DNA from: Anaerolinea sp.
Lineage (GTDB): Bacteria; Chloroflexota; Anaerolineae; Anaerolineales; Villigracilaceae
DNA: 64,000 nucleotides
Direction: 5' to 3'
Assembly (NCBI GenBank): GCA_020723805.1
Contig: DYID01000014.1
Coordinates: 1,159 to 65,158, forward strand
The translations under genes and the position numbers were made by a program. Shown here in pieces: positions 43,491-59,248 of the stretch (position 1 is its first letter; the number at the start of each line of letters is the position of its first letter). Below the pieces are notes generated by a model. The model was given only the letters and a program-made list of their open reading frames with translations, ran no database searches and was not told the origin of the DNA.

Positions 43491-44396
43491 TTACAGTTGC
43501 GGCAGCAGGTATTCATAGGCGCTGAGAGCGGCTTTGGCGCCCTCGCCGACGGCAATCAGCACCTGCTCGGCGTAGTTGTTGGTCACATCGCCCGCGGCAA
43601 AGAGACCGGGGACACTGGTGCGGCAGGCGTTATCCACGATGACGCGCTCCTTATCGTCGAGTTCGACCAGCCCTTTGACCATGGCAGTGTTGGGGGCAAG
43701 CGCCTTTTCCACGAACATGCCGTCGGCTTCGAGTTCCTTCAGTTTTCCTGCCTTGTCTCTCAGTACCAGTTTTCGGGCGAATGTATCTCCTTTGACTTCG
43801 ACGATTTCGCAGTCTTTCAGGATGTTCACATTGCCCGCCTGCTGGAGTTTATGACCCAGCGGCGTGTTCAGCAATTTGTCGCTGGCGCAGACCATGGTCA
43901 CGCTGCGGGCGATGGTGGCGAGTTCGCCGGCAGAACGAAGCGCCAGGTCTTCGTCGCCGATGACGACCACCGATTTGTCAATGAACAGCGGGGCGTAGGA
44001 CAGGGCGGAATAGCACAAGCCGCGCATGGTGAATTCCTTTTCACCCGGCACTTCCATGCGCACCTGACGCGCCCCCGTGGCAAGGATGACCGCCTTCGCC
44101 TCCAGCGCCGCTCCGCCTCGCGTCGTGACGATGAAATGGTCGCCCTTCTTTTCGATCTTTTCCACCGCCTCGATGTGGCGCGCGAAGTCGAGATATTCCA
44201 GTTCGTTGCGGAACTTGTTGACGATTTCCAAGCCGCGAATGACCTGGTAATCCTCCACCCAGGGCAGGGCAAGGCGGAAGTTGGTCTTGCCGCCCAGGTC
44301 TTTCGAGATAAGCAGGACGTTCAGCCGTTTGCGGATGGCATACACGGCGGCTGTCAGACCTGCGGGTCCGCCGCCGACGATAATCAGATCGTACAT
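43491..44396 (-). CDS. Thioredoxin-reductase-like flavoprotein lacking the CxxC pair
   Basis: FAD/NAD(P)-dependent oxidoreductase of 301 residues with TrxR-like topology: LIIVGGGPAGLTAAVYA for FAD, VILATGARQVRMEVPG, and C-terminal FAAGDVTNNYAEQVLIAVGEGAKAA. At the position of the redox-active CATC the sequence is SALS (Ser130, Ser133), so thioredoxin cannot be reduced in the classical way. The NAD(P) motif is also changed (IGDEDLALRSAGEL). It may be a ferredoxin/NAD(P)H-linked reductase. AAGGAG precedes the start. Last gene of the acetyl-CoA pathway operon after a gap of about 220 bases with repeats. Confidence 0.85.
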   Translation of the reverse strand: MYDLIIVGGGPAGLTAAVYAIRKRLNVLLISKDLGGKTNFRLALPWVEDYQVIRGLEIVNKFRNELEYLDFARHIEAVEKIEKKGDHFIVTTRGGAALEAKAVILATGARQVRMEVPGEKEFTMRGLCYSALSYAPLFIDKSVVVIGDEDLALRSAGELATIARSVTMVCASDKLLNTPLGHKLQQAGNVNILKDCEIVEVKGDTFARKLVLRDKAGKLKELEADGMFVEKALAPNTAMVKGLVELDDKERVIVDNACRTSVPGLFAAGDVTNNYAEQVLIAVGEGAKAALSAYEYLLPQL

Positions 44397-44615: not shown

Positions 44616-46001
44616 TCAATAAGCCGACTTGACGGTTTCGAGGTCCACATCGTGCGGGTCGTCGCCGGGCGGAGGTTCGGCGATGAAGCCTTCCTCCATC
44701 AGGCGTTTGGTCATGTCGCGCGAGCGTTTGATGATCTTCGAGGCGCGCTGGAATTCCTCTTCGTAGGTGGTCTCGACGCGCGCCAGTCCCTGTTCGATGG
44801 CTTTCATTGCCACGGCGGCGGCTTCGCGCGGGAAGACCTCCCAGTCGTCCATGGTGGGCAGGATGAAATCGGGGGCGAGGCGGTCGCCGACGTGGTCTGC
44901 CAGCGCCTGGGCGGCGGCAAAGCACATCTCATCAGTAATCGTCTTGGCGCGGACATCCAGCGTGCCGCGGAAGATGCCGGGGAAGCCCAGCGAGTTGTTG
45001 ACCTGATTGGGGAAGTCGGAACGTCCGGTCGCCACCACCGCCGCGCCCGCCTCTTTCGCGACCCAGGGCCAGACCTCCGGAACCGGATTGGCGCAGGCAA
45101 AGACGATCGCGTCCTTTGCCATCGTTCGGATCCACTCCGGCAGGATCACGTCGGGTCCTGGCTTGGAGAGACCGATGACCACATCCACACCTTTCATCGC
45201 TTCGGGGATGTCGCCTTCGCGCCCTTCGGCGTTGGTGATCTGGCACAGTTTCCACTTGTCCTTGAATTCGGCTTTGCGCATTTCGATGTCTTTGCGGTGT
45301 TTGCCGAGGATGCCTTTGCTGTCCACCATGTAGCATTTGGCGGGGTCGGCGCCCCAGCCGAAGATGAGCCGCGAACAGGCAACGTTCGACGCGCCGCTTC
45401 CAATGAAGGCAATGCTGACTTCATTCAACTTTTTTCCCACTACCTTGAGCGCGTTGATGAGGCCCGCCAGGGTGACCGTTGCCGTTCCCTGCTGGTCGTC
45501 GTGCCAGATGGGGATTTCTGCCTTTTCGCGCAGAGTGTCGAGAATATAGAAGCACTTGGGCTGGGCGATGTCCTCCAGGTTCACGCCGCCGATGCCGGGC
45601 TGGAGCATCAGCACAGTGTTGATGATGGCGTCGGGGTCTTTGGTGTCGAGCATGATGGGGACGCCGTCCACCCCGCCGAGATATTTGTAGAGCAAAGCCT
45701 TGCCTTCCATGACGGGCAGACCCGCCTTTGGACCGATGTCGCCCAGCCCCAGCACGCGCGTCCCATCGCTGACCACGGCGACGGTGTTCCATTTGTTGGT
45801 GTATTCGTAGACCAGTTCCGGGTCTGCCTGAATCGCCTTGCAGGGCGCGGCGACGCCGGGCGTGTACCAGATGGCAAAGTCATCGAAACTGTGAACGGTG
45901 CATTTGAGCGTGGTTTCGATTTTCCCCCGATAGAACGGATGCAGTCTCATGGCATCGGCAGAGGGTTTCTTGGCTTTGGCAAGCAGTTCCTCTGTATTCA
46001 T
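44616..46001 (-). CDS. NAD(P)-dependent malic enzyme
   Basis: Oxidative decarboxylation of malate to pyruvate, or the reverse. 461 residues of the short bacterial type: [57 protein letters not shown] (metal and substrate), [12 protein letters not shown] (dinucleotide fold) and [38 protein letters not shown]-like C-terminal motif. GAGGAGGA is a strong ribosome site. Its place in this operon links pyruvate/malate interconversion to acetyl-CoA formation and CO2 fixation. Confidence 0.95.
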
Positions 46002-46014
46002 ATTTTCCTCCTCG

Positions 46015-46174
46015 TTAACTCACCTTACGCAGTTTCTTCGTAGTGCGACACATTGTCCCCGCAAGGGGGGTCATGTCGCCTGAAAACGCGAGATACCCTT
46101 CGGCAGGGTTTCGACAGGCTCAACCTGCCTGCTCAGGACAGGAATCTCGCGCTGCTGCGTAACATGAGTTGTTA
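46015..46174. repeat. MITE-like element, 160 bp, with a nested second repeat
   Basis: Left end TTAACTCACCTTACGCAGT (46015-46033) and right end CTGCGTAACATGAGTTGTTAA (46154-46174). Core words TAGTGCGACACATTGTCCCC and ACGCGAGA...TCTCGCG. The second palindrome is interrupted by an unrelated hairpin-rich stretch (CCCTTCGGCAGGGTTTCGACAGG ... CCTGCCTGCTCAGGACAGG region, about 46096-46142), as if another element inserted. Confidence 0.75.
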
Positions 46175-46450
46175 ATGTCCGTCTCTTCGAAGTTTCTCCT
46201 CTCGAAGGGCGGTGATGACCGCATACAAGTCGAGTCCGCGCTTGCAGGCGTGGCGGGCAGCCTCATGGACGGAATCAGACCAGAGGGTCCGGCAATGAAG
46301 CGCCTCTTCGTCGTCGAGCAGGATCAACTGCACCAGACTCGAAAGCGGAATGTCCATGTCGTTTGCCGCGCCCAGGTCGCAATCGTTGCAGGCGTGGCAG
46401 AGGCGCAGGTCCTGCCCGCTGGCGCGTTGGACAATGGCGCGCAGGGTCAT
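46172..46450 (-). CDS. HdrC-like protein with incomplete Fe-S motifs
   Basis: 92 residues. MDIPLSSLVQLILLDDEEAL, RTLWSDSV and a final LYAVITALREEKLR align by eye with the core of heterodisulfide reductase subunit C, where two [4Fe-4S] clusters are normally bound. Here the first motif is CHACNDC (Cys18, 21, 24) without the usual fourth Cys-Pro, and the second is reduced to SDSVHEAARHACKRG. It may carry one cluster at most. It starts two bases after the GNAT stop and is next but one to metVF; in acetogens such as Moorella, hdrCBA-mvhD neighbours metVF. A remnant or adapter of that electron-transfer module is inferred. Confidence 0.6.
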   Translation of the reverse strand: MTLRAIVQRASGQDLRLCHACNDCDLGAANDMDIPLSSLVQLILLDDEEALHCRTLWSDSVHEAARHACKRGLDLYAVITALREEKLRRDGH

Positions 46451-46452
46451 GC

Positions 46453-47019
46453 CTAGAAGTCGTCCGTTTTGGCGCGGAGCGGCATGGTCATGAAAACCAC
46501 GTCGCGGGTTTCGCCGTCGGGGAAGAGGAAGTAATCGTCGAGCAGCGCCTGCGATTTGAAACCCAGCGCCTCGAAGGCTTTGACGACCTTGGTCTGTTCG
46601 GCGATGACCTCCGCCTGCAGGATGCTCAAGCCCTGCCGCCGCGCCAGGTCAATGAGTGCTTTGATCATTTTCATTCCCAGTCCGCGCCGGCGAAAGTCCT
46701 TGGCGAGGAAGAGCCGCACCTCTCCGATGTGGCGTTTGGGTCCCTCGAAGAAGTGCAGCGAAGCGCTGCCCACCACATGATCCTTGACCAGCGCCAGAAG
46801 CGGCAGAACCTTGTTGTAGTCCAGGTTCATCGCCCACTCGTGGATGAGGTCGGGATCTTTGACGTAGTGACGGAAGTAGCGCATGTCTTCATCGCTGACG
46901 GCGGCGTAAAATTCCTGCAGGCATTTTTCGTCCTCCGTCGTCATGGGGCGCAGAAGGACATACGTGCCGTCTTTGAGCGTGACCATCTCGCGGAAATTCT
47001 TGATTTGTTCAGGGAGCAT
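46453..47019 (-). CDS. GNAT-family N-acetyltransferase
   Basis: 188 residues: LRPMTTEDEKCLQEFYAAVS start, GEVRLFLAKDFRRRGLGMKMIKALIDLAR (acetyl-CoA-binding R/Q-x-x-G-x-G/A) and a final GETRDVVFMTMPLR. GGAGGG precedes the ATG. It lies between metVF and the HdrC-like gene in an operon devoted to acetyl-CoA formation. A role in protein or metabolite acetylation that senses acetyl-CoA is possible but unproven. Confidence 0.88.
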   Translation of the reverse strand: MLPEQIKNFREMVTLKDGTYVLLRPMTTEDEKCLQEFYAAVSDEDMRYFRHYVKDPDLIHEWAMNLDYNKVLPLLALVKDHVVGSASLHFFEGPKRHIGEVRLFLAKDFRRRGLGMKMIKALIDLARRQGLSILQAEVIAEQTKVVKAFEALGFKSQALLDDYFLFPDGETRDVVFMTMPLRAKTDDF

Positions 47020-47072
47020 GTTCCCTCCGAGGGAGTGACGGGTTGCAAGTTTCAGGTGATTGATTCCTGTTA

Positions 47073-47142
47073 GTGTGGTAATTGGTAAATGGTAAATGGC
47101 GATTGCGAATTACCAATTACCAATTACCAATTACCAATTACT
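47073..47142. repeat. GGTAAT/ATTACC octamer array after metVF
   Basis: GGTAATTG GTAAATG GTAAATG words on the left, then four tandem ATTACCA octamers on the right. The two arms are complementary and can form a long hairpin. It starts a few bases after the stop of metVF on the - strand. Confidence 0.85.
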
Positions 47143-47147
47143 TCATA

Positions 47148-48635
47148 TCATGCAGGCACTTTCTCAAGATCAGGATGGTGAAAGTCCTTCGGCAAAACGC
47201 CTCCTTCCGTGACAATGCGCGGGACGATTTCCTCCCAGCCCACCGCCATGATGTGCAGTCCGTTCACGCCCTGACCTCGGAACTTTTTGATTTGCTCGAT
47301 GAGTTCGAGCGCAATCTGCACGCCCTCCTCCTGGGCGTTGCCGGCTTTGTCGGCGGCTTCCATGCGCTTCATCAGCGGTTCGGGGATGAAGACGCCCGGC
47401 ACCTCATCGTTCATGTACTTCGCCATCTTGAAGGTCTTGAGCGGCGTGATGCCGATGAGGATATAGACCTTGTCGAGGATGTTGCGCTTGGCGAGTTCGT
47501 TCAGCCAGATTTCCATGTGCGCCACGTCATAGACCAGATTGGTCTGGAAGAACTGCGCGCCCGCGTTGACCTTCTTATGCTCGCGCAGCGCCTGGAATTT
47601 CGGCTCGGAGGCGAACGGGGAAGCGGCAGCGCCGAGGAAGTAGCGCGGCGGCGTCTTGATTTCGCGCCCGTCCAGGTACCTGCCTTCGTCCCTCATGCGG
47701 CGGAGAATCCAAAGCATTTGAATCGAGTCAATGTCAATCACGTCCATGCGTCCGCGCGGAGGAGGCGCCATCTTCATCGAATCGCCGGAGATGCACAGGA
47801 TGTTGCGAATGCCCAAATCCGCCGCGCCCATCACTTCGGATTGCAAGCCGACGCGGGTGCGGTCGCGCGCCGCGATTTGCATGACGGGTTCCGCGCCGTG
47901 TTCAAGCGCCATCTTCGCGCACGCCCACGAGGCGGTGCGCGGCGTGGCGGAGGGATTGTCGGTGAAGTTGATCGCCGCGACGTAGGGCTTGAGGGTTTCG
48001 ATGTGCTGACACATCTTGTCGGTCTTGCACGAGACGGGCGGGGCGACCTCCGCTGTGACGACGAACTCGCCCGCTTTGAGCCGCCGTTCCAGTTCGGAGA
48101 CGGGCTCGGTATATTTCGGCGGGTGATACTGGTTGTCGCCCTGCCACCACTCGGGTTCGCGCAAGGGACGGAAGATTTCGTCCCACACCTTGTAGCGCAC
48201 TTCGGGCGGCTGGAACGCCAGCCCGCGAATCACCTTGCCCGTGCCAATTTCTTTGACGCGGTTCAAAATGCCGCTCCATTGCTCCGTGCCGACCTTGTCC
48301 CAATCCAGCGGCGGCAGGACTTCGAGCAGGTGTTCCTCGCGTCCGAGTTTGAACGAACGCTCGTAGATTTTGTACCAGATGCACGGGCGGGTTTCGTCCA
48401 CGTAGCAGTGTTCGCGGGTCGAGCCGCCGCATGGACCGTTACGCTCCCCCTTCGGACATTCCATCGGACAGATGAAGGCGGTCTCCTGCAGGAGGCAGTT
48501 GCCGCACATGCGGCATCCGAACAACGGACCTTTGATTGCCTTTTCGATTGCCGCCAGCACGCGTTTGTTGAACGGCTCGCGCTTGAAGGGCAGGTAGGGC
48601 GGCTGCCAGCGGCGTCCAGGGGTGAAGATGGGCAT
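47148..48635 (-). CDS. metF: Fused MetV-MetF methylenetetrahydrofolate reductase
   Basis: A 495-residue fusion. The N-terminal 190 or so residues are the MetV-type Fe-S/zinc domain (GCRMCGNCLLQETAFICPMECPKG, NGPCGGSTREHCYVDETRPCIW). The C-terminal 300 residues are the flavin-binding MetF barrel (VTAEVAPPVSC, NFTDNPSATPR, ILCISGD, FFQTNLVYD, IGITPLKTFKMAKYM). Together they reduce methylene-THF to methyl-THF in the Wood-Ljungdahl methyl branch. In acetogens these are usually two genes. Start MPIFTPG is preceded by AAGGAG, so the 16 earlier in-frame codons in the repeat were discarded. Confidence 0.93.
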   Translation of the reverse strand: MPIFTPGRRWQPPYLPFKREPFNKRVLAAIEKAIKGPLFGCRMCGNCLLQETAFICPMECPKGERNGPCGGSTREHCYVDETRPCIWYKIYERSFKLGREEHLLEVLPPLDWDKVGTEQWSGILNRVKEIGTGKVIRGLAFQPPEVRYKVWDEIFRPLREPEWWQGDNQYHPPKYTEPVSELERRLKAGEFVVTAEVAPPVSCKTDKMCQHIETLKPYVAAINFTDNPSATPRTASWACAKMALEHGAEPVMQIAARDRTRVGLQSEVMGAADLGIRNILCISGDSMKMAPPPRGRMDVIDIDSIQMLWILRRMRDEGRYLDGREIKTPPRYFLGAAASPFASEPKFQALREHKKVNAGAQFFQTNLVYDVAHMEIWLNELAKRNILDKVYILIGITPLKTFKMAKYMNDEVPGVFIPEPLMKRMEAADKAGNAQEEGVQIALELIEQIKKFRGQGVNGLHIMAVGWEEIVPRIVTEGGVLPKDFHHPDLEKVPA

Positions 48636-48708: not shown

Positions 48709-49632
48709 CTAATTCATCAGATACGAATCGGCATAAATCACTTTGTTCAGCAAAATCTGTGTCGTCTTCCAGATGGCAACCTGTTCGGGGTCGCTCATGT
48801 CGAAGTCTTCCATCTGCGGCTCTTCGCTGTTGGCGATGCGTTCGGCAATTTTGTTATAGACGCGCGCCAGCGGCGTGGAAGTGTCCTTCGTCTCGATCCA
48901 GCGGATGACCTCGTTCTGTTTCTGGTCGAAGGGATTGGCAATCATCATCTGCAAGCCGACGCCCATCAGCATGGCGCAATAGACGCGGTTGATGAGCGGA
49001 CGATTCTCGTTGGGGACGGCGTTGGAGACGTTGCTTAAGCCAACGGAAATGTTCGGGGGAGGGTCCCAGGCATATTGCAGAGTCCGAACCGCCTCGATGA
49101 GATGGGGGCAGTATTGCTGGCATCCCGAAACGGTCAGCACGAGCGGGTCAATGATGAGGTCCTTCATCGGGAAGTCAATCTCCAACATGCGCGGGATCAA
49201 TATCTCAACCGCGATATTGACGCGCGCGTCCGCTTCAACGGGGATGCCCTCGCTCTTCATCGTCAGCGCGATGAGTTTGGCGTTGTATTTCTTCGCCAGC
49301 AGCGGCACTTTCTCCAGCCGTTCGGGTTCGGCAGAGGTGGAGTTGAGAATCGGCTGAGCCTTGGTGATTTTCTTTAGCGCCGCTTCCATGCCGTCCACGT
49401 TGGTGGTGTCAATCGAGAGCGGCACATCCACCACCGCCTCCACCGTTTCGACGATCCACGGGAAGACCTCCGCCCAATCCTTCTTGCGCGGACCGAGATT
49501 GATGTCAATCGCCTTCGCCCCCGCCTCCACCTGCCGCACCGCCAAATCCATGAAGAACTCGCGGTCGCGGTTGGCGAGCGCCTCTTTTACTTTTTCAGAG
49601 ATGATGTGGATGTTTTCTCCGATGATATACAT
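48709..49632 (-). CDS. acsE: Methyltetrahydrofolate:corrinoid/Fe-S protein methyltransferase
   Basis: TIM-barrel pterin-binding enzyme of 307 residues that transfers the methyl group of methyl-THF to the AcsCD corrinoid protein. MYIIGENIHIISEKV opens the barrel; DINLGPRKKDW, VPLSIDTTN, PILNSTSAEPER, LIIDPLVLTVSGCQQ and SVGLSNVSNAVP are the pterin and corrinoid-facing strands. Start follows GGAGGT; the longer frame upstream lies in the octamer repeat. Flanked by its substrate producer metVF and by the RACo-type activator. Confidence 0.96.
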   Translation of the reverse strand: MYIIGENIHIISEKVKEALANRDREFFMDLAVRQVEAGAKAIDINLGPRKKDWAEVFPWIVETVEAVVDVPLSIDTTNVDGMEAALKKITKAQPILNSTSAEPERLEKVPLLAKKYNAKLIALTMKSEGIPVEADARVNIAVEILIPRMLEIDFPMKDLIIDPLVLTVSGCQQYCPHLIEAVRTLQYAWDPPPNISVGLSNVSNAVPNENRPLINRVYCAMLMGVGLQMMIANPFDQKQNEVIRWIETKDTSTPLARVYNKIAERIANSEEPQMEDFDMSDPEQVAIWKTTQILLNKVIYADSYLMN

Positions 49633-49654
49633 AACGACCTCCGTTTGTAAATAT

Positions 49655-49706
49655 CCTGTGTAATCGGTAATTGGTAATTTGGTAGTTACCAATTACGAAT
49701 TACTCT
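49655..49706. repeat. GGTAAT/ATTACC array between RACo and acsE
   Basis: TAATCGGTAATTGGTAATTTGG and its inverse CCAATTACGAATTACT. The last codons and TAA stop of the RACo gene (K-S-N-S-stop) are themselves written in the repeat. Confidence 0.85.
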
Positions 49707-51636
49707 TTTCCAGCGCCTCCGCCACACTTGGGAACTTATTCAAATCCGTGTGCGGCAAAAACAATGCGGACGTGAACGCTTCGTAGAAACTGTTGTCCGC
49801 CGAAAGTTCGATATACGTCATGCGCTTCGCAATCTCGCTGATGCGTTCGCGCTTGCGCCAATCGAGCAGAGCCAGGTACGCACCCTTCACCGACGTGTTG
49901 CCGAGAAACTCGAAACGCGACCATTCCATGTCGGGCAGGAGCCCAATCTGCACCGCCTTCTCGACGTTGATGTATTTTCCGAACGACCCGCCGACCAAAA
50001 CCTTGTCCACGCTTTCGAGCGGGATGCCGACGTTTTCCGCCAGCACCGTGAATCCCGCGTAGATGGCGGCTTTGGCGCGCAGGAGGTTGTCAATGTCCAC
50101 GCGCGTCAGGACGATGTCCTCGCCCGACTCGGTTTCTTTTCCCCACGCGACGACGTACTCTCCGCCGTGCGCTCCTTCGCGGACCCTCGGACTGGGCGCG
50201 TCCAATTTGACGTTGCCTCCCTTGTCAATGACTCCCGTGAGGAACGCCTCCGAGAGCAGCGCGATGAGACCCGATCCACAAATGCCCTTCGGTTTGCCTC
50301 CGCCGATGACGCGGTAGGTCGGTTCGAGCGTGTCGCTGTTGATCCACACCTCTTCGATGGCGCCAGTGGTTGCCCTCATGCCGTTGACCACGCCCGCGCC
50401 CTCGAAGGCAGGACCCGCCGAGCAGGCGCACGTCACCAGCCAATCGCGATTGCCCAACACGGTTTCGCCGTTTGTTCCGACATCGAGGAACAGCGTCACA
50501 TTTTCCGCGCTGTCGAGACCCGACGACAACACGCCCGCTGTAATGTCTGCGCCAACGTAGGAGGCAACTCCAGGCAGGCAGTCCACCGCCGCTTCGGGGT
50601 TGACGTTCAAGCCGACCTCGCGTCCCGTCAGCGCAGGCGGATGGTTGACCGCAGGGATGAACGGAGAGAGGCGGATGCTCGCCGCGGGAATGCCAAGGAA
50701 CAGGTGCATCATCGTCGTATTGCCCGCGATGGTCGCTTTGACGATTTGGTCGGGGGTCACTTTGCCCTGCGGCAGTTTGACGCGCTTGCACGCCCTCTCC
50801 AGCAGTTCGTTGATGGTATCCAGCACGCGCTGACGGAGTTCGTCCGCGCCGCCGTTTTTGCTGGCGTAGATGATGCGGGAAATCACGTCCTCGCCGCGTG
50901 CAATTTGTCCGTTATATTCTGCAACTTGTGCTTTGACCTGACCCGTCACCAAATCCACCAGCCAGAGCGTGACGGTCGTGGTGCCGATGTCAATCGCCGC
51001 GCCCCAGAGAGGGGAGTATTCGTCTTCGTGACCGGGGCGCAAGTCTATCAGTCGGATAGTCTGATGGTCTGATGGTCGGGAGATTTCGACGATGGCGGTG
51101 ACGTTCCAGTCGCCCGCTCGAAGCGTGGAGCCGATTGTTCGGAGCAGGGGCAGGGAACAGGTCACGGTTTCGAAGCGGCGCTGGAGGCGAAATGCGGTTT
51201 GCAGGCGCGCCCAGTCGTCGGTTTGGTCGTCCATGCTGGGCGGTGTCAAAGTCAAATGAACGCGGCGAACCGTCTGCGAGAACGGATATTCGTAATCTTC
51301 TGGAACCGTGACTTCGGCGACGACGCGGTCGGTGGTGAGGCGGCGTTCGATCTTCTCCTGCGGCGGGACGTAAATCGCCGCGTCGCCCTCGACGACGGTC
51401 TGACACGCCAACGCATAGCCTTGAGCCACATCCGCTTCCGAGAGGCGCAGCGTACTGCGGCGGCGGACTTGTCCCTCCGTCACCTGCACGGCGCAGCGAC
51501 CGCAGCGTCCCTGCCCGCCGCACGGCTGACCGATGTCAATCCCCGCCAAGCGCGCGGCATCTGCCAGCAGGGTGTTCGTGGGAACGGTGACGCTGGCTTG
51601 CTTCTCGTCGTGGGTGAAGGTGAGGGAGTGATTCAT
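49693..51636 (-). CDS. acsV: Corrinoid activation protein (RACo type, ferredoxin plus ASKHA domain)
   Basis: 647 residues. An N-terminal [2Fe-2S] ferredoxin domain (PCGGQGRCGRCAV, later ACQT) is followed by a middle domain and a large ASKHA-fold ATPase (GAAIDIGTTTVTLWLVD, ATIAGNTTMMHL, FLDVGTNGETVLGN, CSAGPAFEGAG, GICGSGLIALLSE, VGGSFGKYIN). It uses ATP to reduce Co(II) corrinoid back to the Co(I) state in AcsCD. Residues of about 185-197 (SRPSDHQTIRLID) are encoded by a repeat also found at 61772, suggesting an inserted peptide just before the ASKHA domain. The symbol acsV is used by analogy with acetogens. Confidence 0.93.
   Translation of the reverse strand: MNHSLTFTHDEKQASVTVPTNTLLADAARLAGIDIGQPCGGQGRCGRCAVQVTEGQVRRRSTLRLSEADVAQGYALACQTVVEGDAAIYVPPQEKIERRLTTDRVVAEVTVPEDYEYPFSQTVRRVHLTLTPPSMDDQTDDWARLQTAFRLQRRFETVTCSLPLLRTIGSTLRAGDWNVTAIVEISRPSDHQTIRLIDLRPGHEDEYSPLWGAAIDIGTTTVTLWLVDLVTGQVKAQVAEYNGQIARGEDVISRIIYASKNGGADELRQRVLDTINELLERACKRVKLPQGKVTPDQIVKATIAGNTTMMHLFLGIPAASIRLSPFIPAVNHPPALTGREVGLNVNPEAAVDCLPGVASYVGADITAGVLSSGLDSAENVTLFLDVGTNGETVLGNRDWLVTCACSAGPAFEGAGVVNGMRATTGAIEEVWINSDTLEPTYRVIGGGKPKGICGSGLIALLSEAFLTGVIDKGGNVKLDAPSPRVREGAHGGEYVVAWGKETESGEDIVLTRVDIDNLLRAKAAIYAGFTVLAENVGIPLESVDKVLVGGSFGKYINVEKAVQIGLLPDMEWSRFEFLGNTSVKGAYLALLDWRKRERISEIAKRMTYIELSADNSFYEAFTSALFLPHTDLNKFPSVAEALEKSNS
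51046..51085. repeat. GACTATCAGACCATC repeat in frame within the RACo gene
   Basis: AGTCTATCAGTCGGATAGTCTGATGGTCTGATGGTCGGG-type stretch in tandem 10-mers. Its reverse complement is almost the same as the intergenic array at 61772-61825, so this looks like an intergenic repeat captured in frame. Confidence 0.75.
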
Positions 51637-51640
51637 GAGT

Positions 51641-51716
51641 GATCGGTAATTGGTAAATGGTGATTGGTAAATGGTAATTGCCACTTACCAATTACTATTT
51701 ACTATTTACCAAATTA
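51641..51716. repeat. GGTAAT/ATTACC array between acsC and RACo
   Basis: TAATTGGTAAATGGTGATTGGTAAATGGTAATTG and the inverse arm CTTACCAATTACTATTTACTATTTACC. The acsC stop codon (AAT TAA) falls at the edge of the array. Confidence 0.85.
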
Positions 51717-53033
51717 ATTGAGCGCCTGTTTCATAAACGCCGGCAGATCCACCGCCTCACGCGGACCGACGCGCACCTCCCAGCCTGGGAGTTCCTCTTC
51801 CACTTCGCCCGAAAGCACGGCGACATGCCCAGGCAGGACGAGCCGCTTTTTGCTGACTTTGTCCGCAACGTTGAAGCCTTTGATGGCTTTGGCGATTCGT
51901 TCCGCGTCGAATTTGCCCGCCGCCCACGCCGTCAGCACCGACATGCCCTCCGCGTCGGTGACGACCAGCCAGGCGGGCAAGCCGCTTCCTTCCACTTCGT
52001 TGGCGACGGCAAAGTAGGTGATGCTGAAGTTGGTGGTGACCAGCACGGGGCTTTCGGGTTTTGGCGAGTTGATTTCGTACACGCCAGGCTGAACCTGAAT
52101 CGGCTTTTGCGGGTCGGTGTAGAGGTTCTCGCGCAGGACGAGCAGGGGATAGATCATCTCCGGCGCGAAGGTGTCAATGACGACGAAGCCTGCATATTTC
52201 GCAATCGCCTGCGCGGCATAGACCGCCTCCTTCTCGACCCCGTTCTGCGCGGCGAAGAAGATGACGGGATACCCCAGCGGACGGAAGTTCTTGAGCGCCA
52301 GCCTGCGGACTTGCGTGGAGCGCATCAGCCAGTCGCCGAGGTTCTTTCCGCCGAGGTCGAGGACCATGTCTTCCACGCCCTTCGTTTGAATCTTTTGCGT
52401 CAGGTCGGCGAGCGCGTCGAGCGTGTCGGCTTTGACGGCGAGGACGGCTTTGTGTTTCTTCGCCACCTCCGCCAGGGATTCGTAGTTGGATTCGCTTGCG
52501 GCGTAGATCAAGGCTGTTTCCCCAGCGAGCAGGCTGAGGCTTGAGTCCAGAGCCGCCGCGTCGTTCGAGATGAGGATGAGCGGACGCTTCGTCACTTCCC
52601 GCACGGTTTTGACAGCCGCCGTCAAGTCACCATCCGCTTCGATGGCGTAGCCGTTGAGGCTGAAGTCCATGCCAACGTAGTTGACCTTGTAGGCGTCGGC
52701 TTGCGTGACCTTTTTGGCGAGGTCGGGGTCGCTGGCTTTGACGCGCAGGAACAGACCAGGCTTGTTGTAGAAGGTCTTTTCGTGGCGGTACATCACGACT
52801 TCGTTGCCGACCTTGACTTCGTTGCCGTCCGCTTTCAGGGTGACGAGGCGAATCGGCGGCGCGGCGGATTCGGCGAGCTGCTTTTTCGATTCTTCGCTGA
52901 CATACGGACACGCGCCGAGTTCGACCTGCTTGGCGGCGAGTTTCATTGCAAAGGCAAGGCAGGTGGGAAAGCCGCACTCTTTACAGTTGGTTTGAGGGAG
53001 GAGTTTGTAGATTTGGATGCCGCTGAGAGCCAT
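51714..53033 (-). CDS. acsC: Corrinoid/iron-sulfur protein large subunit
   Basis: 439 residues. An N-terminal [4Fe-4S] domain has the motif NCKECGFPTCLAFAMKLA with the final Cys in LGACPY. A TIM barrel follows (PLILISNDAAALDSS, LVLDLGGKNLGDWL, FVVIDTFAPEMIYPLL) and a C-terminal B12-binding Rossmann-like domain (SPVLVTTNFSITYFAVANEVEGS). With AcsD it carries the methyl group from AcsE to AcsB. AAGGAG precedes the ATG. Confidence 0.97.
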   Translation of the reverse strand: MALSGIQIYKLLPQTNCKECGFPTCLAFAMKLAAKQVELGACPYVSEESKKQLAESAAPPIRLVTLKADGNEVKVGNEVVMYRHEKTFYNKPGLFLRVKASDPDLAKKVTQADAYKVNYVGMDFSLNGYAIEADGDLTAAVKTVREVTKRPLILISNDAAALDSSLSLLAGETALIYAASESNYESLAEVAKKHKAVLAVKADTLDALADLTQKIQTKGVEDMVLDLGGKNLGDWLMRSTQVRRLALKNFRPLGYPVIFFAAQNGVEKEAVYAAQAIAKYAGFVVIDTFAPEMIYPLLVLRENLYTDPQKPIQVQPGVYEINSPKPESPVLVTTNFSITYFAVANEVEGSGLPAWLVVTDAEGMSVLTAWAAGKFDAERIAKAIKGFNVADKVSKKRLVLPGHVAVLSGEVEEELPGWEVRVGPREAVDLPAFMKQALN

Positions 53034-53040
53034 GTTGTCT

Positions 53041-53110
53041 CCTTTGTAAACGGTAGAGAATTTTGCCTTTCGTTTTACGCGGCAACATGAATGTTGCGAT
53101 ACTGCCTTTC
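53041..53110. repeat. Degenerate twin-palindrome element upstream of acsC
   Basis: GTTTTACGCGGCAACATGAATGTTGCGATACTGCC contains the palindrome GCAACATGAATGTTGC; AACGGTAGAG at the left suggests a decayed relative of the MITE-like elements. Confidence 0.5.
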
Positions 53111-53132
53111 ACTTAACCTCTTGCGTGAAGAG

Positions 53133-53161
53133 TCAATTACCAATCACTAATTACCAATCAC
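53133..53161. repeat. ATTACCAATC array after acsD
   Basis: CAATTACCAATCACTAATTACCAATCACGCA; the acsD stop (TGA) lies inside it. Single-armed compared with the other arrays of the operon. Confidence 0.8.
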
Positions 53162-54102
53162 GCAACCACCAATTCGCCAATCGCATCCTTGACTCGCTTC
53201 ACCGACTCAGGATGCCTCAACACCACAATATCCGCGCCCGATTCGACCAGCGCCAGCGCGGTGAGCGTCTCCCAATGAATCGCGCGGGCTTTCCAATCGC
53301 CCCACGCTTCGGGGATGCCTTCGCCGACCTTCGCCTCTTTCGTCTTCCACGCTTCGAAGCCGGGCGTGACGATCATCGGGAATTGAGTCATTGCGTCGCC
53401 TTGCAGCGCGGCGAGACGCAGGCGTTCCATCACCGAGTAGCCGTATTCCATGCCGTAGCCGAGCGCGCCCGTGGTCGGGTCCATGAGGATGCGGTCTTTG
53501 GGCATGCCCATGTCGCTGATGAGGATGTTCAACTGTTTCGAGAGGTTCACATCCATCGGCGCGCGCGCCTGCACGAGATGTCCGTTCGCCATCGCCGTCG
53601 CAACGATGGTGCGGTAGTTTTTGTCTTCGCAGATTCCCAGCACAAGCCGCTCGCCCTTCGCCGCCTCGGCAACTGCCACAAGCAGTTCGTTGTCCTTCTC
53701 CGCCTGCCCAGGACCCCAGACGATGAGCGGGAGTCCCGTTGCGCCCAATACGGATTTGACCGCTTTCACTGCATCTTCGGGACTATCTTCGACGGTCAAT
53801 GCCAGGACGAGAAGGTCTGCTCCCGCTTCTTCAGCCTTTTTCGCCCATTGAGCGGGATCTGCCATCGCCGCGCCCCAGACCTCTGCCAGCAGCGGCGACC
53901 AGTCTTCGGGCTTGCGCGACTTGATTTCAATGGCGATGGCGGGTTTGTTTGGGGTCGGCGCTTCGAAGTGCAGATAAGGCATCGTCGTCCCGCCGCCGAC
54001 GGTGACGGTTTTGGCGCGCGTGCCTCCTTCCGCGCTGGTCGCGCCGATGGTCACGGTGCGGATGCTTCCGGGCCATTTGTCTTTAGGGATTTCGATGGGC
54101 AT
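53158..54102 (-). CDS. acsD: Corrinoid/iron-sulfur protein small subunit
   Basis: 314 residues, a TIM-barrel partner of AcsC (CdhD/AcsD family). Visible segments: VTIGATSAEGGTRAKTVTVGGG start, AEEAGADLLVLALTVED, LPLIVWGPGQAEKDNELL, NLSKQLNILISDMGMPKDRILMDPTTGALGYGMEY and a final ETLTALALVESGADIVVLRHPES. All regular family blocks are present. Start MPIEIPKDKW; the 18 in-frame codons upstream are repeat-derived (tacac words). Confidence 0.97.
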   Translation of the reverse strand: MPIEIPKDKWPGSIRTVTIGATSAEGGTRAKTVTVGGGTTMPYLHFEAPTPNKPAIAIEIKSRKPEDWSPLLAEVWGAAMADPAQWAKKAEEAGADLLVLALTVEDSPEDAVKAVKSVLGATGLPLIVWGPGQAEKDNELLVAVAEAAKGERLVLGICEDKNYRTIVATAMANGHLVQARAPMDVNLSKQLNILISDMGMPKDRILMDPTTGALGYGMEYGYSVMERLRLAALQGDAMTQFPMIVTPGFEAWKTKEAKVGEGIPEAWGDWKARAIHWETLTALALVESGADIVVLRHPESVKRVKDAIGELVVA

Positions 54103-54114
54103 GTGTGCCTCCAG

Positions 54115-54229
54115 TGGGGTATACAAGTACACAGGTAGAAAAGTACACAAGTACACAGGTACACAAGGAAACAGGTTACGGTTACATGTCTACATGCGTA
54201 CCTGTCTACGTGTTTACGTTATCTACAGC
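54115..54229. repeat. AAGTACACAGGTAC array between the CBS gene and acsD
   Basis: Tandem degenerate words AAGTACACAGGTA, AAAGTACACAAGTACACAGGTACACAAGG, then the inverted form GTCTACATGCGTACCTGTCTACGTGTTTACG. It replaces the ATTACC array at this junction but has the same two-armed design. Confidence 0.75.
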
Positions 54230-54889: not shown

Positions 54890-57184
54890 CTAGAACATCG
54901 GCTCCATCGCCATGGCGGGATGATTGTGCGCCTCCAGCCAGGCGAGCAGTTCTTCGACGGTTGTCACACTGCGCTCATCGGCGATCTTGTCGAGCAGGTC
55001 GGGGTCGCCTTCGCGCTCGCAGACCTTTTGGAATTCCTCTTTCATGGTTTCTTTCAGCACCGATGACATCCACACCACGCGCTTGAAGCCGCCGTCGGCG
55101 GAGATGAACTTGGGGCTGATGAGGTAATACTTGCCCACGCCCATCACGCCCGGGGTTTGCAGACCGCCGCCTGCGATGCCCGCCAGAGTCGAGAAGGTCA
55201 TGCCTGCGGGGGTCATGGAGGTATCCTCGCGCGAGACGACCATCACGCCGTTTGCCTCAGGGATGAGCATGACGATGCACTCGAAACATCCGCAGGCGGT
55301 CATGGGGTTTTCCATGATGGAGTACATCGAGACTTCCTGCACCACGCCGTGCGAGCCGATCTTGGCGTAATCGTTCGTCCCCTGCCAGTAGCCTTTCTTG
55401 GGGTCGAGCAGTTTCCCAAGTTTGATGGGCTGATTGGGTCCCGTCGGGTTGATGTTGTAGGAGGCTTTGCAGTCCAGCCAGTTGTACGCGCCGCACAAGC
55501 CCAGCCGTTCGGGAGAGACCACGCAGACGTGATTCGGTGCGAACGACTGACAAAGTGTGCAGGAGTAGAACTCCTCCACCTTGTCGTCGGTAAGGTCGGC
55601 GAGGCGTTTGTTGCGGAAGTCGTAGGCGGCGCGCGCCTTCTCCAGCCATTCGGCGTGGAGCGCGGGGTCGGTGATGATGGTCACTTCCACTTTGTCCACG
55701 ATCGCGCCGAAGTCCTCGTGGAAGCGGGCGTGCAGTATCTTGCCGAAGTGTTCGAGGGTGAAGCCTTTGTCTGCCGCGGCGTTCGAGATGCGGATCCAGG
55801 CGATGTCGCGCTGACCGACGTGCTGAATCCCGCTCGCGCCGTTGACGAAGTAATGCACCTGCCGCTCCAGCACTGGCTCGAAGTCCTGCTGCATTTGCCG
55901 CCCCGCCACTTTGATGACGATGCCCAAGTCCATGTGACCCTGCGGCGGGACGTTGGAGAAATCGGGTCCGATGACTTCGATCTTGCCGTCGGTCACTTCG
56001 TCCAGCGGCGTCATGTAGAGATACTCGAAGGCGCGGCTGTACTTGCCGCCGAACTCCACGCGCAAATCCGCCTTGCGGACGACCTCGCCCTCGAAGGCGG
56101 AGCCATACGGGACGGGCACGTCCACATGCGAGACCTTGACCTTGACGCCGCGCACTTCGATACATTTCTGAACGAGACGCTCGGCGCGCTCCAGATCGTC
56201 CTTGCCTTCGATTTGATTGAACGGCATCGAGACGACATGCTCGTAGGTGGTCACGCCTGTCGGCAAAATTTCGGGGATGACCGTATCTGCGATGACGGGG
56301 AAGCCGAAGTTGATGGCGCCCGCGGCGGCGGCATATTTCAAATCGTCCACTTCGCCCAACGCCAGCACGAAGGCGAAGACGCGATCTTTGTTGTAGAGCA
56401 GGATTTCGCGCGACTGTCCAGGCTTGAGCCCGCCGAAGGTCAGGGCGGAGCGGGTGGCGAATCCCAGCGCGTAAATTGCAGAGATGGTGTCCGTGCCGAA
56501 CGGGACGGTGTAGGTGTCGTAGCCGAGTTCCACGCCCTCTTCGATGAGTTGATGGATGATGCTCCGCCCGTTGACGTTGCCTGAGAGGAAGGTCAGAATA
56601 TTGCGGCGTTGTAACTCACGCACAATCTTGACGGCGACCTCGTTCGACTTGGCGCAGCCCACAATCGCGGCAAAGCCGGGCATGCGACCGTCCACGAGTT
56701 GAATGCCCCATGAACGGAGTTGAATATCGTCAATGGGTCCATTCAGATGCCCGTCTGTTCCGCCTTCCCCTTCTTTGTTGTTTGCGTCAGGACTTGTAAA
56801 GGATGTGCCGCCCGCGAGTTTGAAGCCGGGCATGGGCTCAGGCTGAAGTCCGTAAACGAAGCGGATTGCCTCAATCGCCTCGGCGGCGAGAAGCGTTGCC
56901 ATGCCGGAATCGAGAGTCTCGCCGAGGTAGGGAGTCCATTTCGAGAAGGCGGGAATCGGATGGAGCAAGTCGCGTGCGTACTTCAACACAGGCTGAAGGT
57001 CGCCGAGTTTTTCGACCGCCTTGCCCGTCATGCCGAGGATGGTGGGGAGGTAGTAAGCCGTGTTCGGGAACGCGACGGGCGTATCTGCGCCTTTTTCCTT
57101 CAACGCCTTGTTGAGCATGATTTCGGCTTCGGTCACCAGCGCGTTCGCGCCGCGCGTGGCTCGGGTGGCAATGTATTTTGACAT
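54890..57184 (-). CDS. acsB: Acetyl-CoA synthase catalytic subunit (CO-methylating)
   Basis: 764 residues, bacterial-type AcsB with the N-terminal CODH-binding domain (residues 1 to about 310) that archaeal CdhC lacks. Ligands of the A-cluster are complete: Cys542, 545, 554 and 564 (YSCTLCQSFAPNHVC, LGLCGAYN) for the [4Fe-4S] part and the Cys631-Gly-Cys633 motif (ACGCFECI) for the distal nickel. The spacing of 89 residues between the first Cys and the CGC motif equals that in the Moorella enzyme. It joins CO, methyl and CoA to acetyl-CoA. Ribosome site GGAGA. Confidence 0.98.
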   Translation of the reverse strand: MSKYIATRATRGANALVTEAEIMLNKALKEKGADTPVAFPNTAYYLPTILGMTGKAVEKLGDLQPVLKYARDLLHPIPAFSKWTPYLGETLDSGMATLLAAEAIEAIRFVYGLQPEPMPGFKLAGGTSFTSPDANNKEGEGGTDGHLNGPIDDIQLRSWGIQLVDGRMPGFAAIVGCAKSNEVAVKIVRELQRRNILTFLSGNVNGRSIIHQLIEEGVELGYDTYTVPFGTDTISAIYALGFATRSALTFGGLKPGQSREILLYNKDRVFAFVLALGEVDDLKYAAAAGAINFGFPVIADTVIPEILPTGVTTYEHVVSMPFNQIEGKDDLERAERLVQKCIEVRGVKVKVSHVDVPVPYGSAFEGEVVRKADLRVEFGGKYSRAFEYLYMTPLDEVTDGKIEVIGPDFSNVPPQGHMDLGIVIKVAGRQMQQDFEPVLERQVHYFVNGASGIQHVGQRDIAWIRISNAAADKGFTLEHFGKILHARFHEDFGAIVDKVEVTIITDPALHAEWLEKARAAYDFRNKRLADLTDDKVEEFYSCTLCQSFAPNHVCVVSPERLGLCGAYNWLDCKASYNINPTGPNQPIKLGKLLDPKKGYWQGTNDYAKIGSHGVVQEVSMYSIMENPMTACGCFECIVMLIPEANGVMVVSREDTSMTPAGMTFSTLAGIAGGGLQTPGVMGVGKYYLISPKFISADGGFKRVVWMSSVLKETMKEEFQKVCEREGDPDLLDKIADERSVTTVEELLAWLEAHNHPAMAMEPMF

Positions 57185-57198
57185 AAGTTCTCCTCGCG

Positions 57199-57241
57199 GT
57201 TGGTAATTAGTAATTGGTAATTACCATTTACCAATTACCAC
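57199..57241. repeat. GGTAAT/ATTACC array between cooS and acsB
   Basis: TTGGTAATTAGTAATTGGTAA and the inverse TTACCATTTACCAATTACCA. It starts one base after the cooS TGA stop on the - strand and ends upstream of the acsB ribosome site. Confidence 0.85.
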
Positions 57242-59248
57242 TCATCCGTAAATGGCTTCGCGCTTCTTTTCCAGCGGCAGCGCCTCCAACTCACGCATTC
57301 GCCAATCGCCGCTGCGCCCGAACTTGTTCGGCTCCCACGCGGGCAGACCGAGCGCGGCGCGCTTCTTGTCAATGTGCGCGAGCGTGGCTTCGATCATCTT
57401 TTGCGGGTCGGGGATGAATTCGAGTTTGCCGCCGTAGAGTTTTTCCCAACCCTCGCTGATGAATTTCAGCACCAGGTCGCTGTCGCTGACTCTATCGGGC
57501 ATGCCGCTCACGGGCGATGCGCCGCCAAAGATGACGTACGCGCCCGAAGCGACGCAATACGTGGCAATCGCCAGCGCCTTTTCGCTCATCCATTCGGGCG
57601 CGAGACCGACGGCGGGGATTTGGTCAATGTCGTCGCCCAAGCCGCCCTCTTCGACCATCTGCGTCAGCACGGTCAGGATGCGGGTATTGTCCACGCACGA
57701 ACCCATGTGGAGGACGGGCGGGATGCCGACCGTTTCGCAGACTTCGCGGAGTCCGCTTCCGACCTCGGTCAAGCCTGCTTCGCCCAAAAGGAGCCCCAAC
57801 TTCCCCGCGGCAATCGCGCCGCACCCCGTCTGGACGACGAGTACGTCGTTCTTGAGCAGTTCCTTCACGACGGTGTTGTGCAGGTAATCCTGCGACGAGC
57901 GCGGATTGTTGCATCCCACAATCGCCGCCACGCCGCGGATGCGTCCCGCCATGATGGCGTCGTTCAACGGGCGGAATGACGCGCGGTACGAACCGCCGAG
58001 CATGTAGTTGATGTACTCGTGCGAGAAGCCGGGGATGACATCTTCCTTGATTTGCGGAATGTGCATCTTCGAGCGGTCGCGGTTCTTGAAGTTGTCAATC
58101 GCCGTCTTCAAAATTTGCTTGGCGATGGTCAATGCCTTGTGTTCGTCGAATTCGATGTGCGTCGCCCCCGTGATTTTGACCTTCGGCGAGGTGGTGATGA
58201 TCTTGGTGTGGAAGTTCTGCGCCAGTCCCACCAGCGCCTGCATGATGCACTGCACGTCCACTACCATCGCCTCGACCGCGCCGGTGAGTATCGCAAGTTC
58301 CTGATGCAGGAAGTTCCCCGCCGCAGGGATGCCCTGTCGCATGAGAATTTCATTTGCCGTACAGCAGATGCCCGAAAGGTTGACGCCGTTCGCCCCCGCC
58401 GCTTTGGCGTACTCGATGATTTCAGGCGTCTGCGACGCGGCGACAATCATCTCGCTCAGGCTCGGCTCGTGTCCATGCACGACGACGTTGACCATGTCTT
58501 CTTTAATCACGCCCAAATTCGCCTGTCCCAAAATCGGCGCGGGCGTGCCGAAAAGGATGTCCGAGATGTCGGTGGCAATCATCGAGCCGCCCCAGCCGTC
58601 CGCCAGCGCCGTGCGGATGGCGTGATTCAGGATATGCGCGGGGTCCTGGTCATCGCCGATATGTGTGCGATGCAGGCATTCCACTACCTCGCGGTCAATG
58701 CCGCGAGGCCAGACCTTTTGCTCGCGCCACAACTGCTGGCGTTTCTTCGGCGCGCGCGTCGCAGGGACGATCTCGCCTGTCTGCTGACCGAACTGCGAAA
58801 TGTACAGGTCGGCTAAATCGTTGGCGATTTCTTCGGGGGCGCGACCTTCAATCTTGATTCCATACTTCGAAGCCACAATCCGTAGTTTGGCAACGTCGCG
58901 GATGCTGTATCCCTCCGCCTCGCCTTTGGCGGTTGCCTTGAGCAGGAACGCCATGTCGCGCCCGTGATCGGAGTGCGCCGCCGCGCCCGCCGCGATGGAG
59001 CGCGTCAGGTTGCGCGCCTGGATGGTATCCAGCGTTGCGCCGCACACGCCTGTCTCGCCGCTCTTGGTCAGGCGGCACGGACCCATCCCGCACTGCTTAC
59101 AGCACATCCCCGCGCCGCCGATGTTGCACGGGACCATCGCGTCGGCGCGCGTAAACGCCGTGCCAATGCCGAGTTCCTCCGCGCGGAGGAGCATCTCCTG
59201 CGCGGCAGGGTCGGTCGAGTACTCCTTGATGTCACGTTTCTTGGGCAT
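57242..59248 (-). CDS. cooS: Anaerobic carbon monoxide dehydrogenase catalytic subunit
   Basis: 668 residues, Ni-Fe-S CODH (CooS/AcsA). The N-terminal D- and B-cluster cysteines are CNIGGAGMCCKQCGMGPCRL and GVCGA. C-cluster ligands all have counterparts: His in VVHGHEPSLSE, Cys in GICCTANE, VDVQC, VGCNNPR, TGCGA and GSCVDN (Cys518), and the catalytic Lys in MSEKALA. It reduces CO2 to CO for AcsB or oxidises CO. GAGGTG precedes the ATG. Second gene of the operon, after the HMA-like gene, and divergent from its maturation genes cooC. Confidence 0.98.
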   Translation of the reverse strand: MPKKRDIKEYSTDPAAQEMLLRAEELGIGTAFTRADAMVPCNIGGAGMCCKQCGMGPCRLTKSGETGVCGATLDTIQARNLTRSIAAGAAAHSDHGRDMAFLLKATAKGEAEGYSIRDVAKLRIVASKYGIKIEGRAPEEIANDLADLYISQFGQQTGEIVPATRAPKKRQQLWREQKVWPRGIDREVVECLHRTHIGDDQDPAHILNHAIRTALADGWGGSMIATDISDILFGTPAPILGQANLGVIKEDMVNVVVHGHEPSLSEMIVAASQTPEIIEYAKAAGANGVNLSGICCTANEILMRQGIPAAGNFLHQELAILTGAVEAMVVDVQCIMQALVGLAQNFHTKIITTSPKVKITGATHIEFDEHKALTIAKQILKTAIDNFKNRDRSKMHIPQIKEDVIPGFSHEYINYMLGGSYRASFRPLNDAIMAGRIRGVAAIVGCNNPRSSQDYLHNTVVKELLKNDVLVVQTGCGAIAAGKLGLLLGEAGLTEVGSGLREVCETVGIPPVLHMGSCVDNTRILTVLTQMVEEGGLGDDIDQIPAVGLAPEWMSEKALAIATYCVASGAYVIFGGASPVSGMPDRVSDSDLVLKFISEGWEKLYGGKLEFIPDPQKMIEATLAHIDKKRAALGLPAWEPNKFGRSGDWRMRELEALPLEKKREAIYG

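Follow-up and report, generated by a model that had tools for sequence, protein, structure and literature searches.

Electron supply to MetVF methylene-THF reductases, and energy conservation there, is an open question in acetogenesis. In the Hdr-type (type IV) enzyme, metVF is clustered with hdrCBA and mvhD, giving HdrCBA-MvhD-MetVF, as in Moorella and Sporomusa (PMC9430772) and in the Chloroflexi DscP3 (PMC5736913). The type II (2S) enzyme combines MetF with a MetV that has two Fe-S regions. MetV is reported to carry two [4Fe4S] sites (PMC8515935, PMC9430772), the type II enzyme is ferredoxin-dependent in vitro (PMC8515935, PMC8760232), and reduced ferredoxin serves MetVF enzymes in vitro (PMC8760232).

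We analysed a 64,000-nucleotide stretch of an Anaerolinea sp. assembly (hereafter the window). It carries a long Wood-Ljungdahl operon in the order CooS, AcsB, CBS protein, AcsD, AcsC, RACo, AcsE and a fused MetVF, continuing with a GNAT gene, a 92-residue protein that we call q92, malic enzyme and a TrxR-like flavoprotein (Table 1). The original prediction had the positions and order of q92, GNAT and fused MetVF right; all three are on the minus strand, and 2 bp separate the GNAT stop from the q92 start. As in type IV, an HdrC-type protein is encoded with metVF, but HdrAB and MvhD are missing, MetVF is fused and the HdrC-type protein has one predicted cluster. As in type II, there are a MetV-family domain and MetF with no Hdr partners at the locus, but here they form one polypeptide, MetV is represented by the DUF5981 region only, its N-terminal cysteine region being absent, and q92 is extra. 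Our literature search, whose coverage was incomplete, turned up no account of an HdrC-like protein with a single cluster accompanying an MTHFR.

Table 1. Features of the q92 operon and of q92 itself, with positions in the window.
Feature	Position	Strand	Basis or remark
TrxR-fold flavoprotein	43491..44396	-	SALS for CxxC, degenerate NADPH motif
Malic enzyme	44616..46001	-	Downstream neighbour in many q92 loci
q92, HdrC-derived, predicted one-cluster Fe-S protein, 92 aa	46172..46450	-	ORF, profile and fold matches
Cys69 of q92, predicted fourth ligand (HdrC motif-2 Cys4)	46244..46246	-	
Degenerate motif-2 positions 59, 62, 65 of q92; second cluster site lost	46256..46276	-	
Cys18-x2-Cys21-x2-Cys24 of q92, first motif, three predicted [4Fe-4S] ligands	46379..46399	-	Aligns with HdrC motif-1 Cys1-3
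GNAT-family acetyltransferase	46453..47019	-	Acetyltransf_1, E 5e-15
Fused MetV(DUF5981)-MetF methylene-THF reductase	47148..48635	-	DUF5981 E 5e-27, then MTHFR E 2e-29, in one frame; 48635 is the ATG, longest ORF reaches 48683
Pterin-binding methyltransferase (AcsE-like)	48709..49692	-	Same operon
RACo-type activator of corrinoid protein	49693..51684	-	
Corrinoid Fe-S protein subunits AcsC, AcsD	51714..54156	-	
Acetyl-CoA synthase (AcsB) and CO dehydrogenase (CooS)	54890..59248	-	

The predicted absence of HdrAB holds at this locus, where neither hdrA nor hdrB was found, but not for the genome: contig C13 (L024 2757-9324) carries a complete hdrC-hdrB-hdrA-mvhD set. The original prediction had named such a set co-occurring with metVF as an argument against itself; the set exists, but it lies beside NiFe hydrogenase genes and not beside metVF. 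The fused MetVF, a form common across the class, begins only at DUF5981 and is without the cysteine region found at the N terminus of canonical MetV (CGTC..C, QCEWE, ACGIG); a search of this genome for that region gave a single weak match (E 0.007). The idea that q92 substitutes for the missing region is weakened by an Hdr-type operon (L188) that encodes q92 alongside a complete MetV. No RnfC scored over the cut-off in this genome, making an RnfC2-type input unlikely, and a phage search gave no match. A second fused MetVF copy, 64% identical, is encoded on contig C19 beside thiolase/HMG-CoA-type (mevalonate-pathway-like) genes.

Single-sequence searches of Pfam, NCBIfam and the PDB with q92 returned no match. 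The first homologue search found ten q92-like loci in Anaerolineae MAGs, and we aligned q92 with these ten close homologues, without including any HdrC (alignment A1). In genome scans of the class the A1 profile matched both HdrC and its fusions with HdrB, with E values of about 1e-9 to 1e-13. The profile comparison proposed with the original prediction bore out the relationship: hhalign matched the q92 alignment to 14 HdrC domains with Prob 99.2% and a score of 100.4. The controls stayed at or below 24.0 for 50 column shuffles and at or below 25.9 for three other Fer4_8 proteins of the same genome (seven loci were chosen, of which three gave a usable stretch). With 11 close sequences as input, AlphaFold gave a poor model (pLDDT 67.5); adding 11 rows raised the pLDDT to 92.8, for a model without cluster. 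VIA-align of this predicted fold ranked HdrC chains in all five top places (Z 9.7-10.6), with a CODH domain following at Z 6.0, and the overlap with the HdrC fold spans 89 residues. Foldseek by itself gave a weak signal, the first HdrC appearing at E 0.02 at best. Because one row of the 22-row alignment (A3) is the HdrC of this very genome, its matches to HdrC were not counted as independent evidence. The fold match likewise supports the relation without proving it independently; the A1 profile is independent of HdrC.

The HdrC of HdrABC (7bkb_C, 5odc_C, 8rwn_C; Fer4_8 dicluster fold) resembles q92 in predicted fold, in the first motif, in the fourth cysteine of motif 2, and in the tryptophan before motif 2 with its spacing, the distance from W57 to C69 being the same in both. 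q92 differs in having one putative cluster instead of two, in stopping right after the Fe-S domain so that the C-terminal part is gone, in forming a separate clade, and in having no HdrA or HdrB partner genes at the locus; in four genomes it is an extra gene behind HdrCB. Judged by these comparisons, q92 is an HdrC-related protein, a short paralogue minus the C-terminal part and one of the two clusters.

In 2[4Fe-4S] ferredoxin-type domains both motifs contribute to each cluster: one supplies three cysteines, its partner motif its own fourth cysteine. HdrC contains a pair of CxxCxxCxxxC motifs, and q92 keeps four of these eight cysteines, the other four being replaced. Cys18, Cys21 and Cys24, the three first-motif cysteines already noticed in the original prediction, are invariant in 35 aligned sequences. 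The fourth conserved cysteine, which had been overlooked, is Cys69, kept in 34 of the 35; in the sole exception the sequence departs from the others immediately ahead of this residue, probably through a frameshift. Positions 59, 62 and 65 are D/E, mostly L, and A/S, with a cysteine in none of the 35 sequences, and Cys53 is variable. By the alignment, q92 thus retains exactly the ligands expected for one [4Fe-4S] cluster, an apparently intact site and not random decay. The loss of half of the HdrC cysteines might suggest a decaying, non-functional HdrC fragment. This reading is scarcely credible: it is refuted by the four cysteines kept across diverse sequences and by a median dN/dS of 0.10, which indicates purifying selection.

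Other short HdrC-like proteins of about 110 residues occur in other Anaerolineae families and share the short architecture and the clade of q92. Together with q92, these short relatives group separately from the HdrC and HdrCB of the class (support 98/98), which makes the q92 group a paralogue of HdrC, in a tree built from only 91 columns whose inner order is unsure. One relative (G034, 109 residues) differs from q92 in having all eight cysteines and follows MvhD-MetV-MetF-HdrCB; another (G004) is partly degraded. These short dicluster and partly degraded forms may be read as intermediates towards q92. In the Anaerolineae family f25, the single-cluster relatives have the same four-cysteine set as q92, but adjoin CooC-like ATPases and not MetVF. 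Two genomes (G021 and G129) have two copies each in tandem, and such tandem pairs beside a CooC-like ATPase lie at L089 9716-10803 and L090 1554-2518.

We then surveyed 152 genomes of the window's family, all of them assemblies, in which related genomes are not independent and several loci have short flanks. q92 was detected in 39 genomes and AcsB in 54. The two are strongly associated: q92 is present in 38 of the 54 genomes with AcsB versus one of the 98 without it (Fisher p 7e-22, kinship ignored), and that one (G772) still carries AcsE-MetVF-GNAT-q92. An MTHFR module lies upstream of q92 on the same strand in 39/39 genomes, and fused MetVF neighbours q92 in 35/39. The gene directly upstream is GNAT in 28 genomes, fused MetVF in nine and HdrCB in two. 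The metVF-GNAT-HdrC order of the original prediction is conserved as regards the MTHFR module, but GNAT does not directly precede q92 in 11/39 genomes. In one operon (L201 2712-6772, genome G703), GNAT-q92 has a different fused MetVF gene on either side. Across the class, many AcsB genes sit in open frames of unusual length (1,130-1,870 aa), which may mean that inteins or fusions are common in AcsB. In another genome of the class (G232; L107 377-5827), AcsB contains two inteins (Intein_splicing E 2e-21, LAGLIDADG_3 E 4e-32), each right before a cysteine of conserved motifs matching the A-cluster region (..CTL|CQSF.., ..MTA|CGCFEC..).

Since the whole operon is conserved, adjacency by itself cannot single out the MTHFR as the partner of q92. 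The protein might instead serve the CODH/ACS-corrinoid part of the pathway, passing electrons to RACo for activation of the corrinoid protein or assisting CODH/ACS maturation. RACo, AcsC, AcsD, AcsB and CooS share its operon, q92 is almost absent where AcsB is absent, and the f25 relatives stand beside CooC-like ATPases. We nevertheless consider this role unlikely, because throughout the family q92 follows MTHFR or MTHFR-GNAT and not RACo or CooC, and many AcsB operons are without q92. The tight coupling to GNAT, whose stop is often 2 bp from the q92 start or overlaps it, means that GNAT could be the partner. The two might form a redox-sensing regulatory pair in which the cluster gates acetylation of a pathway enzyme. 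Such a sensor is quite improbable given the 11 genomes where q92 is not directly behind GNAT, the presence of GNAT without q92 at three loci (L100, L101, L102), and the lack of a DNA-binding or known sensor domain. Both roles nevertheless count as serious alternatives to a reductase partner.

The original prediction saw in q92 a leftover of HdrABC acting as a simplified input to fused MetVF in place of Hdr, fed by the TrxR-like flavoprotein. The HdrC homology and the adjacent fused MetVF fit this, but four genomes contradict it. In G700, G702, G696 and G763, q92 comes after HdrCB, sometimes with GNAT intervening; three of these stretches extend far enough to reveal what precedes HdrCB, in each case canonical MetF, and HdrA and MvhD are visible upstream in G700 and G702. 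q92 thus coexists with HdrC and does not replace it. In G763 (L167 1182-1446), HdrCB and an intact q92 are separated by what is left of a fused MetVF, a frameshifted piece of its C-terminus; here the Hdr type appears to have replaced the fused reductase while q92 stayed. Conversely, q92 is missing from operons with fused MetVF (G382, G061, L105-L109) and from two genomes with an Hdr-type reductase (G179 and G362): it tracks neither reductase type strictly. The flavoprotein, for its part, lacks the redox-active CxxC of thioredoxin reductases. It has SALS where TrxR has CATC, both catalytic cysteines being gone, in the window and in all eight aligned operon homologues, as well as at L101, and its usual NADPH motif is degenerate. 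It adjoins malic enzyme in these operons, an arrangement that is conserved, and the flavoprotein is found also without q92. This speaks against it as the proposed electron source, and we regard the scheme of a simplified, flavoprotein-fed Hdr remnant as very improbable. What the results suggest is a weaker form of the electron-input idea, with q92 as an input or adapter.

Our preferred reading, held tentatively and at slightly less than even confidence, is that q92 acts as an accessory subunit of methylene-THF reductase, using one cluster for electron transfer or serving in docking. Cys18, Cys21, Cys24 and Cys69 would hold a single [4Fe-4S] cluster. The protein would dock on MetVF, in its fused or its Hdr-complex form, and could relay single electrons between a low-potential donor such as ferredoxin and the Fe-S and flavin centres of MetV-MetF, in a direction that we can only presume. 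The constant linkage to MTHFR and the fused MetVF that lacks one MetV cysteine region speak for a reductase role. Against it stand the f25 relatives and the many fused-MetVF operons without q92, which imply that q92 is dispensable for that enzyme. A narrower version, in which q92 is a dedicated one-cluster carrier of the MTHFR and, in Hdr-type operons, the proposed second electron partner of the bifurcating reductase, seems highly unlikely.

Encoded with methylene-THF reductase in uncultured Anaerolineae, the conserved, predicted one-cluster HdrC derivative together with a minimal fused MetVF offers a small system for testing how the reductase is supplied with electrons and whether energy is conserved there. 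As far as its sequence tells, q92 is also a case of HdrC trimmed to a single-cluster module that is not part of an Hdr complex.
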